38,251 nucleotides of DNA from Dehalococcoidia bacterium. GTDB taxonomy: Bacteria > Chloroflexota > Dehalococcoidia > SHYB01 > SHYL01. Both the position numbers and the translations under genes were made by a program. Numbering within the stretch: the first letter of the stretch is position 1; every line of letters begins with the position of its first letter. The DNA lies in the NCBI GenBank assembly GCA_009692825.1, contig SHYL01000007.1, positions 1-38,251 of the forward strand. Reading direction: 5' to 3'. This document shows, in pieces, positions 2,081-8,636 of the stretch. The notes under the pieces are model-generated. The model saw only the letters and a list, made by a program, of their open reading frames with translations. It was not told the origin of the DNA and ran no database searches.

Positions 2081-4297
2081 ATGAGTTCTCCTACCACTAA
2101 ATTTATAGGGCGTTTTCAAATCGTTGATGCTTTTGTATCGACAAGCCTTGCTTCTTCATATAAAGCTCTCGATCCAAAAACAAACGAATATGTAACTCTC
2201 AAGGTGCTCCGCCCTCACTTTTTTGAAGACAACGCTACTGCGGACAAATTCAAACAGACATTGCTTTCGTATGCACAGGTTGGGCATGACAACATAGCGA
2301 AAATTTTCGAGGTTGGTCAAGAGGGCAACGAGTTATGGGTATCCAGGGCTAACGTACCGTTTGATTCCCTGCGCCACCTCAAACTGCCGGCCGCAAAGGC
2401 AGAAGTAACAAGAATCATAGGACAAGTAGCAAATACCCTTGATTATTTGCATAGCCTCGAGAGAGTTCACGGCGATATCAAGCTCAGTAACATCTTCTTT
2501 GACGGGTCTAAGGTAGTCGTCACAGACCACGGCATGATAGCTGCAATCGAGCACCTGCCTCCGCTCATAAAAGCAACGTTGAACACACCACAGCCCGTAT
2601 TTGCGGCTCCTGAATTTACACAGCGCGGCAAGCTAGGCGTAGCCTCAGACATTTATGCCTGTGGAGTGCTCGCGTTCAATCTATTGACGGGCGAGCCCCC
2701 GTATTACGCAACAGATTCATCTTCGATGCTCGCCAAACAGCTGACGAAAGATCCCCAGAGACCTTCTGAGCTGGCGCCGTGGCTGACGTTTGCCGTCGAC
2801 GAAGTCATACTCAGCGCGATAAGTATAGAACCTAGCAGGCGGCAGAAAAGCGCCGGAGCGTTTGCAGAAGAACTCCGTAACGCCCTAGAAACCGTTACAT
2901 GGCCGAGCCCAGTTTTGTTAACTGCGACAGAGCACGTATCACAATCCCATACGCCTGCTGCAACCCTGGCAATGGCCTCGGCTGAACTAGCAGGCGGCTC
3001 AGTAACTACCCGGAATATTCTGATCCGTCTCAAAAGGATAAATAGGAAGAAGCTGATACGGAACAGTCTTATTACTATAGCTTCCTTAACGATATTAGTC
3101 GGAGTCTGGCTTCTATATGACATAGTCGGCTTGCCCAAATCCGCTGTCCATCCTTCTACCACGATAACGGCGGCATATTCGAAGGGAGAATGGCCCAGCT
3201 TCCTTGGCGGCCCTACTCACACAGGTTTTATCCCAGAAGCGACGGCCCCTATTAAGGGAAAGGTTAAATGGAGCTTTGTCACCGGCGACAAACTTTCAGC
3301 TGAGCCAATCATCGCTAACGGAACAGTCTTTCTCGCAACGACTGATAAAAGAGTCGTAGCGCTTGACCCTAAGGATGGCAGCGTCAAATGGGAATATAAG
3401 AAGGGGACAGGGCCGATCGATTCCACCCCTTCAGTGGCTGACGGCAAGGTATATTTCGGCCTCCGCGATGGAAGAATAATCGTCCTTAATGCGAACGACG
3501 GAACCACAGCCTGGGTATACCAAACTGACGGGTACATATTTACTCCTCCAACAGTCGATAAAGGAGTCCTTTATATTGGAAGCGGCGATAACAATCTTTA
3601 CGCACTTGACGCAGCGACAGGAAAAAAGCTGTGGACATTCAATAGCGGTAGCTCAATCGCCGGGGCAGCGACTGTAAATAATGGAATAGTGGCGATTTCG
3701 TCGTGGGACGGAGCCATGTACCTTCTGGACGCAGATACAGGCAAGAAACGACTCAGGTATGTGCTGCCAGCCATATCATCCGGCTCGCTTCTGATAGTCG
3801 GAGACACCGTTTATTCCGGAAGCGCACGAAGCAGAAGGAACACACTCTATTCAATTGATTTGCAAGTGAGTGAGATCCGTACAGAGCGATGGGTGCGCAG
3901 ATTTCTTATTCAACTATCAGTGTGGGGACTGGTAGACTATCCCGCCATAAAAGGCACCCGCTGGGCGGTTCGTCTCTCTGAACCAACAACCTGGCTTACG
4001 GCAGCCGATGACAAAATCTACGGGCTCAGTCAACAGGGGACTTTATTTACCTGGGACGCCGCAACGGGCAAGGAATTAAGCAAGAAAAAACTCGCAGACC
4101 GGGCGGATTCCTTACCCTTGGTGGTAGGCAACACAGTTTATGCAGCAACCTGGTTTGGAGACCTGTATGCTTTTGACAGGACATCAGGGAACCAGGTTAT
4201 GAAAATGCAGTTAAACGAATCCATAACAGTCCCTCCAGCATTCGCAGGAGATACCTTATATATAGCGGCTGGCAACACACTCTATGCGATCGAATAA
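2081..4297 (+). CDS. Membrane-anchored Ser/Thr-kinase-like protein with extracytoplasmic PQQ-type beta-propeller
   Basis: A 738-aa predicted receptor. Residues 10-270 form a kinase-like domain: VTLKVL with the ATP-binding Lys at 41, HGD in place of HRD (130-132, Asp132 kept), Asn137, DHG in place of DFG (149-151), APE (176-178) and DIYACGVLAFNLLTG. The Gly-rich loop has lost the GxGxxG glycines and no clear helix-C Glu is seen, so activity is uncertain. One hydrophobic helix spans about 328-348, after a Lys/Arg-rich stretch that implies an N-in orientation. Residues 370-738 hold PQQ/BamB-like blades with repeated LYALDAATGKKLW-type motifs. By analogy with PknD-type proteins, the propeller would sense or scaffold outside and the kinase domain would signal inside. 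It stands alone, with no phosphatase or substrate gene beside it. Domain calls are firm; function is inferred. Confidence 0.88.
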   Translation: MSSPTTKFIGRFQIVDAFVSTSLASSYKALDPKTNEYVTLKVLRPHFFEDNATADKFKQTLLSYAQVGHDNIAKIFEVGQEGNELWVSRANVPFDSLRHLKLPAAKAEVTRIIGQVANTLDYLHSLERVHGDIKLSNIFFDGSKVVVTDHGMIAAIEHLPPLIKATLNTPQPVFAAPEFTQRGKLGVASDIYACGVLAFNLLTGEPPYYATDSSSMLAKQLTKDPQRPSELAPWLTFAVDEVILSAISIEPSRRQKSAGAFAEELRNALETVTWPSPVLLTATEHVSQSHTPAATLAMASAELAGGSVTTRNILIRLKRINRKKLIRNSLITIASLTILVGVWLLYDIVGLPKSAVHPSTTITAAYSKGEWPSFLGGPTHTGFIPEATAPIKGKVKWSFVTGDKLSAEPIIANGTVFLATTDKRVVALDPKDGSVKWEYKKGTGPIDSTPSVADGKVYFGLRDGRIIVLNANDGTTAWVYQTDGYIFTPPTVDKGVLYIGSGDNNLYALDAATGKKLWTFNSGSSIAGAATVNNGIVAISSWDGAMYLLDADTGKKRLRYVLPAISSGSLLIVGDTVYSGSARSRRNTLYSIDLQVSEIRTERWVRRFLIQLSVWGLVDYPAIKGTRWAVRLSEPTTWLTAADDKIYGLSQQGTLFTWDAATGKELSKKKLADRADSLPLVVGNTVYAATWFGDLYAFDRTSGNQVMKMQLNESITVPPAFAGDTLYIAAGNTLYAIE

Positions 4298-4314: not shown

Positions 4315-4343
4315 TTGACACATTTACACCCCATTGGTAAACT
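4315..4343 (+). promoter_or_regulatory. Main sigma-70-type promoter of the ribosomal protein cluster
   Basis: TTGACA (4315-4320), a 17-bp spacer and TAAACT (4338-4343) form a near-consensus housekeeping promoter. It leaves a leader of about 65 nt before rpsL and begins 18 bp after the upstream gene ends. It is the strongest promoter-like match I saw in the window, as expected for ribosomal genes. Confidence 0.8.
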
Positions 4344-4995: not shown

Positions 4996-5466
4996 ATGTC
5001 AAGGAAAAGAACAGCTGAAAAGAGACCTCTCCCACCTGATGCTAGGTATCAGAATGCTGACCTGTCCAGATTCATCAATAAGGTCATGCTCAACGGAAAG
5101 AAATCCGTAGCTGAGGGCATCGTTTATGACGCGATGGTCAAGATTGAGACTGAGACGAAGAAAAACCCGATGGACACTTTCGACCTTGCGATCAAAAACA
5201 GCACGCCGATGCTCCAGGTCAAGCCCCGCCGCGTAGGTGGAGCGACATATCAGATTCCGGTAGAGATTCCACCCAACAGGCGCCTTTCACTGTCCATGCG
5301 CTGGCTGATAAATGCAGCCCGCGACCGGAAGGGCAAGCCAATGGCTGAAAAGCTGGCTTCAGAGTTGATAGATGCTTCAAGAGGACAAGGCTCGGCAGTT
5401 AAAAGAAAAGAAGATCTACACAAAATGGCTGAGGCAAACAAGGCCTTCGTTCATTTCAGATATTAA
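4996..5466 (+). CDS. rpsG: 30S ribosomal protein S7
   Basis: Primary 16S rRNA-binding protein of the 30S head that helps form the mRNA exit channel. The 156 aa match the usual length, starting MSRKR and including the conserved [24 protein letters not shown] and [11 protein letters not shown] segments. It ends AFVHFRY, the normal bacterial terminus. It lies between the rpsL spacer, a possible autoregulatory target, and fusA, 23 nt away. Nothing unusual was seen in the protein. Confidence 0.97.
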
Positions 5467-5489
5467 TAGCACCAAGGAATCACTTAGCA

Positions 5490-7580
5490 ATGGAACTACC
5501 ACTAGACAAAGTAAGAAATATCGGCTTCATAGCCCACATAGACGCTGGCAAGACCACCGTCAGCGAACGCGTGCTTTTTTATACAGGCCGCACGCATAAG
5601 ATTGGCGACGTAGATGACGGCAATACCGTGATGGACTGGATGGACCAGGAAAAAGAACGCGGTATCACAATCACGTCCGCCGCAATCACAACCGAGTGGA
5701 AAAACTACCGTATCAACGTTATTGACACGCCTGGCCACGTCGACTTTACGGCAGAAGTAGAGCGAAGCCTGAGAGTACTTGATGGCGGCGTAGTTGTATT
5801 TGACGCAGTGGCAGGTGTCCAGCCTCAGTCAGAAACAGTGTGGCGCCAGGCTGATAAGTATGGCGTACCCCGTATTTGCTTTGTGAATAAGATGGACCGC
5901 ACCGGCGCGGATTTCGCCAGGACCGTCAAAACGATAGTCGACAGATTAGGCGCACGCCCCGTTCCTATCCAGATACCGATAGGCGCCGAGTCAGCGCTCG
6001 AAGGTGTAGTCGACCTCATGGAGCAAAAGGCTTACCTCTTCAAGCTGAAAGAAAACAGTAAAGAGACGACGATGGTAGAAGCTCCCATACCGGACTCAGT
6101 CAAGAAAATGGCTAAGGAATACCGCGAGACGATGATTGAGCGCATAGCCGAGACTGATGACAAGCTCTCCGGCGATTTCCTCGAAGGCAAGGCTATCTCA
6201 AACGCAGATTTGAAAGCGGCTTTGAGGAGAGCCTGCATATCTAACATCCTGGTTCCTGTTGTCTGCGGAAGTGCCCTGAAGAATGTAGCCGTTCAGCCAA
6301 TGCTGGACGCAGTACTTGATTATCTTCCATCCCCATTAGACGTGCGCGACGTCAAAGGCATTGATGTTAAAACCGGAGGGGTAGCAGAACGAAAGCCAAA
6401 GTTAGACGAACCCTTTGCAGCCCTGGCCTTCAAAGTAGTTACGGACCCCTTTGTAGGCAGACTGGTGTTCTTCAGGGTCTACTCTGGAGTCATCAAGGCT
6501 GGTTCCCAGGTTTCTAATTCGACAAAAGACATAAAAGAGCGCGTTGGCCGTTTACTGCAGATGCACGCTAACCGCCGTGAGGAGATTACTGAGATTTCGG
6601 CCGGCCATATTGCTGCCGCAGTTGGACTCAAGAATACATTCACTGGCGATACCCTTTGCGATTTGAACAACGAGATAATCCTCGAATCGATCAAGTTCCC
6701 AGAACCTGTACTGGCAGTCGCGATTGAGCCAAAGACTCAGGCTGACCAGGAGAAGTTATCTTACGCTCTCACAAAGCTTTCTGATGAAGATCCAACCTTC
6801 ATTGTTAAGCAGGACTCTGAGACTAATCAGACCATAATCGCCGGTATGGGTGAGCTGCACCTAGAAGTACTCGTCGAGCGCATGCGCCGCGAGTTCAAAG
6901 TGGAAGCGAACGTAGGCGCACCTCAAGTCGCTTACCGAGAAGCTATCACAGGAACCGCAAAAGCCCAGGGCAAGTTCGTCAGGCAGACAGGCGGCCACGG
7001 CCAGTACGGTGACGTATGGTTGGAAGTACGGCCTGGGGAAAAGGGTTCTGGCGTGATATTTGAGAACAAGGTCGTCGGCGGCACGGTTCCCAAAGAGTTC
7101 GTCTCACCTATTGAGAAGGGTGTGAAGGAAGCAGCACAAAACGGTGTCATAGCAGGTTACCCGTTGGTAGACATCAAGGTAATCCTATATGATGGCAGCT
7201 CACACCCGGTGGACTCCAGTGAAATGGCGTTTAAGATGGCAGGCTCCATCGCCCTTAAAGAGGCAGTAAGAAGAGCCAAACCTGTAATACTTGAGCCGAT
7301 AATGCTGATGGAAGTCGTAACACCGGGCAATTTCATGGGCGATATAATGGGCGATATCAACTCGAGGAGAGGGAAAATCCTAAACCTTGAGGGTCTGAAC
7401 GACACACAGATAATCAAGGCCCACGTGCCATTGTCTGAGCTATTCGGCTATGCCACCGCCATGAGAAGCATGACGCAGGGCAGGGCAACACATTCGATTG
7501 AGTTCAGTCACTACGAGCCGGTACCACATTCGATAGCAGAGAAGATAACAACCGCGAAAGGCGTAGCAGTCAATGGCTAA
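5490..7580 (+). CDS. fusA: Translation elongation factor G
   Basis: GTPase that drives ribosomal translocation and, with RRF, recycling. The 696 aa are standard. The GTP site has AHIDAGKT (15-22), DTPGH (79-83) and NKMD (133-136), and the switch I region contains the RGITI segment. Domains II-V follow, with GMGELHLEV and the domain [11 protein letters not shown] region. In many bacteria tuf comes next; here the stop overlaps the rpsJ start by 8 nt and no EF-Tu gene is present in the window. The context favours the canonical translocase over a specialised paralogue. Confidence 0.97.
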
Positions 7581-7881
7581 ACAAAAGATAAGAATAAGGC
7601 TGAAAGCAGCCGATTATAGGATCCTGGACCAGTCCGCTGTGCAGATCGTGGAAGCAGCTGAGAGGACAGGCGCACAGGTCGTTGGACCAGTGCCGATGCC
7701 AACGCGCGTAAGGCGATGGATCGTCAACCGCGGCGCGAACATCGATAAAGACTCACGTGAGCACTTCGAGATAAGGACTCACAAGCGCCTGATAGATATT
7801 TTGGACCCTACTTCGAAAACTATTGATTCTCTTACCAGGCTCCAGCTGCCAAACGGCGTCGATATTGAGATAAAGATTTAG
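7573..7881 (+). CDS. rpsJ: 30S ribosomal protein S10
   Basis: Small-subunit head protein that also acts as NusE in antitermination. The 102 aa are standard, with [29 protein letters not shown] and ending [10 protein letters not shown]. The ATG lies inside the end of fusA in another frame with an 8-nt overlap, suggesting translational coupling. It is the first gene of the S10 section, but no separate S10 leader exists here because the gene directly abuts fusA. Confidence 0.97.
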
Positions 7882-7889
7882 GTGTAGCG

Positions 7890-8636
7890 ATGGGCGTTAA
7901 CGGAATAATCGGTAAAAAAATAGGCATGAGCCAGGTCTTCAAGGATGATGGGTCTCTTATCCCAGTCACCGTGATTGAGGCCGGACCTTGTACGATCACT
8001 CAGATCAAGACCAAGGAAAATGACGGCTACGATGCCGTCCAGCTTGGCTTTGAGGAAACTAAGGGTTTAAGCAAGCCTGAAGTCCGCCATCTTGCCGCGT
8101 CTAAAACGGGCCAGCTCCGCCATCTGCGTGAGTTCAATTTCAAACCGGACGACCAGATTCAGCTCGGGAATAAAGTGGACGTCACTATATTCAAAGAAGG
8201 CGAGCAGGTAGATATCACTGGTACATCCCGCGGTCTTGGATTCGCGGGTGTAGTGAAGAGACATCACTTCGCCGGCGGCCCGAAGACGCACGGCGCTTCC
8301 GACCGCACACGCGCGCCAGGATCTATCGGTTCCACTACCACACCAGGGCGCGTACTTAAGGGTCTCCGTATGGCAGGTCATATGGGTGACGAGACCATAA
8401 CAACCAGAAACCTTGAAATCATTGGGGCTGACCAGGCACACAACGCTCTCCTAATCAGAGGTGCTGTGCCAGGCGCCAAGAATGCGATCCTGGTTATTAG
8501 AATGGCACGTCAGCCACACCGCAAACATGTTCGACAGGTTGTTAAGGCAGAGGTCACGTCAAAGGGACCCGCAAGAGCGACTGCGACGGTGAAACCAGCC
8601 CCTGCGAAAGCTCCTGCGGCTCCGGCCAAGAAGTAG
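7890..8636 (+). CDS. rplC: 50S ribosomal protein L3
   Basis: Early-assembly 23S rRNA-binding protein reaching toward the peptidyl-transferase centre. Core motifs include GIIGKKIGMSQVF at the N terminus, FAGVVKRHHFAGGPKTHG and the loop RAPGSIGSTTTPGRVLKGLRMAGHMG. The 248 aa are longer than the common 205-215 because of a C-terminal tail rich in Ala, Pro and Lys (about residues 225-248). That tail resembles those on S12, S19, L13 and the N terminus of L5 here. It starts 8 nt after rpsJ. Confidence 0.96.
   Translation: MGVNGIIGKKIGMSQVFKDDGSLIPVTVIEAGPCTITQIKTKENDGYDAVQLGFEETKGLSKPEVRHLAASKTGQLRHLREFNFKPDDQIQLGNKVDVTIFKEGEQVDITGTSRGLGFAGVVKRHHFAGGPKTHGASDRTRAPGSIGSTTTPGRVLKGLRMAGHMGDETITTRNLEIIGADQAHNALLIRGAVPGAKNAILVIRMARQPHRKHVRQVVKAEVTSKGPARATATVKPAPAKAPAAPAKK

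Follow-up and report, generated by a model that had tools for sequence, protein, structure and literature searches.

The gene at positions 2081 to 4297 of the window (the whole 38,251-nucleotide stretch of contig SHYL01000007.1 analyzed here, from the Dehalococcoidia genome that we call G000) probably encodes a single-pass envelope receptor that has a degenerate kinase fold, functions like a pseudokinase and comes from a lineage-specific family; we put the probability of this reading at roughly 0.62. The original prediction had offered two roles for the protein, a pseudokinase-type scaffold or an atypical active kinase. That pair of options holds, and comparison with relatives shifts the balance towards a pseudokinase-like role. 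In the mechanism that we favor, the propeller with its conserved aromatic insertion, the part kept throughout the family, would presumably bind a ligand or a component of the envelope. The kinase fold, made non-canonical in most members, would presumably be a docking or nucleotide-sensing platform that answers the propeller, for instance via dimerization, and signals non-catalytically.

Architecture and kinase motifs of the window protein

The gene is present as an open frame with an ATG start, and its features are as follows.

2081–4297, + strand: whole gene, 738 amino acids; kinase-like domain, transmembrane helix and BamB/PQQ-type propeller
2102–2890, + strand: kinase-like domain, residues about 8–270 (Pfam PF00069, AlphaFold2, PknB/PknA matches)
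2135–2155, + strand: Gly-rich loop position, residues 19–25 VSTSLAS, glycine-free (alignment)
2201–2203, + strand: beta-3 Lys41, kept (alignment)
2258–2260, + strand: Thr60 in the helix-C Glu position (alignment)
2468–2476, + strand: HGD, residues 130–132, at the HRD position, Asp132 kept (alignment)
2489–2491, + strand: Asn137, kept (alignment)
2525–2533, + strand: DHG, residues 149–151, at the DFG position, Asp149 kept (alignment)
2606–2614, + strand: APE motif, residues 176–178; the Glu178 position is Glu in 16/16 family members
3071–3127, + strand: transmembrane helix, residues 331–349, with a positive N-side (hydropathy, charge)
3242–4294, + strand: BamB/PQQ-type propeller, residues 388–738, about 8 blades (moderate-confidence model)
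3863–3964, + strand: propeller insertion, residues 595–628, with an amphipathic helix at 603–614 (alignment, model)

Pfam Pkinase (PF00069) spans residues 24–223 and scores 90 bits (cut-off 31.7), and PQQ_2 reaches 133.7 bits in the C-terminal half (cut-off 27.6). The top hydropathy window coincides with residues 331–349 (2.07) and is preceded by a net charge of +7 and followed by one of +1, so that by the positive-inside rule the kinase would be cytoplasmic and the propeller extracytoplasmic. The PQQ_2 score and this charge bias agree with the earlier proposal that the kinase-like half is tethered to a PQQ/BamB-like propeller outside the cell. A chance or mistranslated reading frame is ruled out by the agreement of Pfam, AlphaFold2 and full-length relatives.

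The motif assignments made from the letters alone were borne out in alignments. Lys41, Asp132, Asn137 and Asp149 fall at the catalytic positions in an alignment of the protein to 20 kinases from the class, and their placement was repeated with 31 kinases from viral contigs. The Gly-rich loop glycines are missing, as had been claimed, and HGD and DHG stand where HRD and DFG are expected. The helix-C Glu, earlier described as unclear, can now be placed: its column, 90% conserved in the 31 viral-contig kinases, is occupied by Thr60, and the residue just before it is Gln.

How the protein is classed depends on the rule applied. With a score above the curated cut-off and two lobes in its predicted fold, it counts as a Hanks-type kinase fold, and it falls outside the canonical active Hanks set (Gly loop, Lys, Glu, HxD, Asn, DFG). 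Under a strict rule, in which loss of the beta-3 Lys, the HRD Asp or the DFG Asp defines a pseudokinase, the protein keeps all three residues and is not one. A broad rule, as worded in the available part of PMC7586955, asks that one or more conserved canonical residues be missing, and this describes the window protein, where other residues have taken the place of the Gly loop glycines, the helix-C Glu and the DFG Phe. We would expect weak or no phosphotransfer from this copy because these three elements are gone despite the retention of Lys41, Asp132, Asn137 and Asp149. Those same four residues and the predicted intact fold can also be taken to indicate an atypical but active kinase, in which HGD (a non-RD motif), DHG and the Ser/Thr-rich loop would still be competent for phosphotransfer and the propeller would serve as ligand sensor. 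We regard this as a tentative alternative that is somewhat unlikely to be correct, given Thr60 and the glycine-free loop and, among relatives, the frequent absence of the catalytic Asp described below.

An AlphaFold2 model of residues 1–290 (mean pLDDT 93.1, pTM 0.90) has PknB and PknA as its best PDB matches (Foldseek TMq about 0.70–0.81; Z about 30). Structure prediction had been proposed as a check on the kinase assignment, and the adverse outcome, no kinase fold, did not occur; an intact fold is predicted. The alignment used for the model consists of the 31 kinase rows from viral contigs, and because these are mostly canonical kinases, the fold is safe in the model and fine detail of the pocket is not. 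The propeller model is of moderate confidence (pLDDT 68.4), being built on 3 sequences (a 7-row alignment with PQQ-dehydrogenase-like rows dropped before folding). It matches BamB and designed PQQ propellers and shows about 8 blades by strand count, with an inserted helix at 603–614. We give no weight to a match with the PERK luminal domain (5v1d, E 1.7e-9), which covers a query stretch of about 80 residues. The insertion consists of an aromatic amphipathic helix followed by roughly WG..P.PP..G..W, a pattern that is recognizable, with substitutions, through an alignment of 33 homologues with and without the kinase. This aromatic amphipathic element (3863–3964) is a possible membrane- or partner-binding element.

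Erosion of catalytic residues across the family

A profile (A1) made from 12 fused proteins was run on 393 genomes of the same class, with at most 2 candidates scored per genome. At least 16 relatives, the window protein included, match nearly the full length of the model (kinase, transmembrane helix and propeller) in 14 genomes; 12 of these full-length members are rows of the profile itself and 4 are new. The matched frame is free of internal stops in the 16 fused proteins, and the matches of G019 and G269 pass over stops upstream of their open frame. A direct scan of contigs with the window protein matched 8 loci in the propeller half, one of them back to residue 292.

Catalytic residues are eroded throughout this family. 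The beta-3 Lys is kept in 11 of the 16 kinases and missing in 5, the helix-C Glu is kept in 4 and missing in 12, and the DFG Asp is kept in 10 and missing in 6; the catalytic-loop Asn is kept in 10/16. The HRD Asp survives in 7 members and is missing in 9, where it is replaced by Asn (5), Gly (3) or Ser (1). Only one member keeps the second Gly of the loop; 15 lack it, 12 members having Ser or Thr there, and the window protein and G082 are the only ones in which the loop is entirely without glycine. Five members (G003, G067, G082, G007b and G047b) have a Glu one residue before the helix-C column, and a register shift could restore the helix-C Glu in them. In comparison, Lys, helix-C Glu, HxD, Asn, DxG and the second Gly are each kept in 20/20 control kinases, which were hand-picked, not drawn at random, from higher-ranked non-family matches to the profile. 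Structural positions of the family are retained: the APE Glu and the position of Arg254 (the subdomain XI Arg) are conserved in 16/16, and Asp190 in 15/16, with Glu in G076.

Within its family the window protein is among the less eroded members in catalytic residues and among the more eroded in the Gly loop. It is one of five members (G000, G003, G047a, G321 and G346) in which Lys, Asp, Asn and Asp occur together, and among these G321 is the only one that also has the helix-C Glu; its DFG is kept as well. Part of the family, for example G321, could thus be active on the strength of its residues, a point in favor of an active kinase in the window as well, and the loss of the catalytic Asp in 9/16 members weighs on the other side.

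We examined HGD and DHG by aligning the relatives. HGD occurs in 5/16 members and DHG in the window protein only (1/16), and the idea that the two motifs form a conserved signature of the family must be given up; the catalytic residues have therefore been lost differently in separate lineages. The outcome named in advance as evidence for random drift in this one copy, orthologs with canonical motifs, did not occur either, since the relatives are mostly non-canonical. The variety of losses also bears on the idea that the chemistry has been switched instead of lost, for instance to AMPylation or glutamylation as for SelO and SidJ. Such changes are described among bacterial pseudokinases in the available part of PMC12599244; nevertheless, the residues lost here vary by lineage and leave no common replacement motif, and we consider a switch very improbable.

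Outside the class, 400 genomes of the phylum were searched at E <= 1e-90. Seven matched, namely G000, G022 (also of the class) and five with kinase-PQQ proteins, all from one other family; the profile aligns with their kinase and with the propeller up to about position 573–608. The first two loop glycines, Lys, Glu, Asn and DFG are found in 5/5 of these proteins, and HRD in 3/5. HRH takes its place in the other 2/5 (loci L221 and L222), where loop, Lys, Glu and DFG are otherwise canonical.

Selection and repeated loss of the kinase domain

The kinase domain might be a vestige that has no function in this copy and is heading for deletion, only the transmembrane helix and the propeller mattering. 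Selection was estimated by the Nei-Gojobori method in three same-genus pairs of relatives, as a close relative did not turn up for G000 itself. In G010/G068, where Arg replaces the beta-3 Lys and NAG replaces DFG, dN/dS is 0.049/0.617 (0.08) for the kinase and 0.145/1.013 (0.14) for the propeller. The corresponding values are 0.187/1.066 (0.18) and 0.134/1.018 (0.13) in G007b/G047b, which have HGG for HRD, and 0.18/0.966 (0.19) and 0.133/0.816 (0.16) in G007a/G047a. Purifying selection thus continues to act on kinase domains of relatives that are predicted to be dead, and the kinase is more constrained than the propeller only in G010/G068, being slightly less so in the other two pairs. The low ratio in G010/G068, the retained structural residues and the frames without internal stops all count against a vestige.

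Three observations are more favorable to that idea: kinase-less forms are common, kinase presence has changed several times on the propeller tree, and the window copy has a long branch. The first two, like the repeated loss of the HxD Asp, also count for the pseudokinase-like reading. The C-terminal half alone (transmembrane helix and propeller) is found in many class genomes by profile search, and no kinase reading frame lies beside any of the 17 kinase-less loci, a subset of all such matches, that we inspected (A1 profile, E <= 1e-5, flanks up to about 1.5 kb, shorter for some loci, and with essentially no upstream DNA for G141). A CxxC-CxxC zinc ribbon ahead of the transmembrane helix is present in 12/17 kinase-less and 7/16 kinase-bearing proteins; it is absent from the window protein. 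In a propeller tree with 33 proteins the presence of the kinase requires 7 changes, at least 3 of which are forced by well-supported branches. In the kinase tree, one branch with modest support (83/87) separates the 16 family kinases from the 20 controls, and loss of the HxD Asp takes 4 changes. Several branches of this tree are long, and the window copy is one of two that were flagged, with a length of 1.81. Taking both sides together, we judge decay without function to be improbable. The simplest account is a single fusion, after which catalysis decayed and the kinase domain was lost, each more than once; the order of these changes is inferred.

Chromosomal setting, possible partners and known systems

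The gene lies 113 bp from fumC and 119 bp from rpsL, and its place between fumC and a ribosomal promoter had been called unusual. The gaps are as stated and a promoter-like site is present at 4315–4343, between the gene and rpsL; the promoter itself is less certain, as such sites are not in excess in the region (2 found, 3.3 expected from shuffled sequence). The location is indeed unusual, as neither a family gene nor fumC was found at any of 19 rpsL loci of other relatives (flanks up to 1.5 kb; 20 other genomes with a match, G007 yielding no locus), which also disposes of the fumC-rpsL placement as a conserved arrangement. A look for repeats that could account for the position gave two direct-repeat families within the propeller half of the gene and no inverted repeats, and so offered no explanation. 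At the contig edge (1–483), frame 2 reads NLHAKIYIND, which we take to be PLD-like, and frame 1 continues with cysteine pairs and an in-frame TAA; this stretch resembles the remains of a broken gene, or an error at the edge of the assembly.

The commonest locus of the family is elsewhere. Family genes adjoin holA, ychF or hemW in 14/33 cases (9/16 kinase-bearing and 5/17 kinase-less). The order holA, family gene, ychF is seen in G010, G068, G121, G146, G321 and G346, the last two of which have hemW further on; holA and hemW are the neighbors in G003 and G381, and ychF is the sole such neighbor within the flanks examined in G006, G019, G022, G058, G076 and G082. The YchF C-terminal domain is present in 4/4 ychF products tested, and PF06071 has one match each in 16/18 genomes, G006 and G121 having none but carrying a partial ychF beside the family gene. 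In G000 itself, holA, ychF and hemW are on another contig (C10; locus L125, C10:44000–58000, at 5039–8453) without a family gene, and about 40 bp separate holA and ychF where six relatives carry one; holA and ychF are similarly adjacent in G033. The window gene therefore sits away from the family's commonest locus.

The window gene is the only Pkinase match in G000, and PP2C_2, FHA and SpoIIE have no match there. The lack of a partner tells against an active kinase, although in a genome that is 75.7% complete such absences are weak evidence. The family gene is likewise the only Pkinase match in G006 (54% complete), G010, G321 and G346. Across the 14 family genomes, PP2C_2 occurs in 5, FHA in 5 and SpoIIE in 10, with strong SpoIIE-type matches in G010, G068 and G321; absence of Ser/Thr phosphatases from these genomes is thus rejected as a general rule. 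The three strong SpoIIE-type matches count against the pseudokinase-like reading.

Kinase-TM-propeller receptors and kinase-PQQ proteins have already been described, as PknD and AfsK (PMC3601408 and PMC1262709, in the portions available). PknD of Mycobacterium tuberculosis shares the plan of a kinase, one transmembrane helix and an extracellular beta-propeller, but its propeller is a six-bladed NHL propeller and its kinase is activated by dimerization, whereas the window protein has a BamB/PQQ propeller and a degenerate kinase (PMC3601408, PMC1262709, likewise in part). No NHL family was found in it (Pfam, E up to 1), only PQQ/BamB-type repeats, and we do not class it as PknD-type. AfsK of Streptomyces has an N-terminal kinase and C-terminal PQQ repeats, as here (PMC1262709, same portion), but at 107 bits against a cut-off of 1300 (NF053615) the window protein is not a member. 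The StkP/PknB-type Hanks kinases are the nearest solved kinase domains, StkP being first by sequence and PknB/PknA by fold; the window protein differs in its degenerate motifs, in having no detected PASTA domain and in scoring 140 bits against 450 for PknB_PASTA_kin. With BamB and designed PQQ-type propellers it shares propeller fold and repeats, but it scores 142 bits against 285 for BamB (TIGR03300) and differs by its membrane anchor, kinase fusion and conserved insertion.

A parallel in design is ActPs1, an actinobacterial pseudokinase family in which many members have PQQ_2 C-terminal to the kinase (O'Boyle et al. 2025, PMC12599244, available part). A degenerate Ser/Thr kinase domain and a C-terminal PQQ_2 are common to both, but all three catalytic residues are substituted in ActPs1, and in the window protein Lys, HxD Asp and DxG Asp remain in place. 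The available part of that account mentions none of three features of the present family, namely its zinc ribbon, its propeller insertion and its holA-ychF position, and neither 'Chloroflex' nor 'propeller' appears in the main text. YukC/EssB, as described in the same part, is likewise a membrane-anchored bacterial pseudokinase scaffold, with a different partner, type VII secretion (PMC12599244). Literature searches combining pseudokinase with Dehalococcoidia or Chloroflexi did not bring up this family among the matches listed, and a search on PDB entries named 'membrane associated protein kinase with beta-propeller' gave nothing useful.

A further proposal, quite unlikely in our estimate, goes beyond the pseudokinase-like receptor that we prefer. 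These proteins may form a lineage-wide class of phosphotransfer-free envelope receptors in which propeller, transmembrane helix and pseudokinase act on the often-adjacent YchF, not on another kinase, and which in some genomes would be the only kinase-like protein; the kinase module would then be a replaceable docking unit that was lost several times, the receptor core being kept. YchF has been linked to translation and stress control (PMC8779481, available part). The pseudokinase-like reading that we prefer gains from G010, which is 90% complete and whose only Pkinase match is a predicted-dead copy (beta-3 Arg, NAG for DFG; locus L072, 9103–11433). Such a genome stands out, since discussions of pseudokinases often cast them as regulators of kinases that are active. 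More generally, one gene family, often at one locus, offers a natural series from G321 with all five catalytic residues, through the partly eroded window copy and predicted-dead relatives, to kinase-less forms. With such a series one can study the role that a kinase domain plays in bacteria once catalysis is lost.
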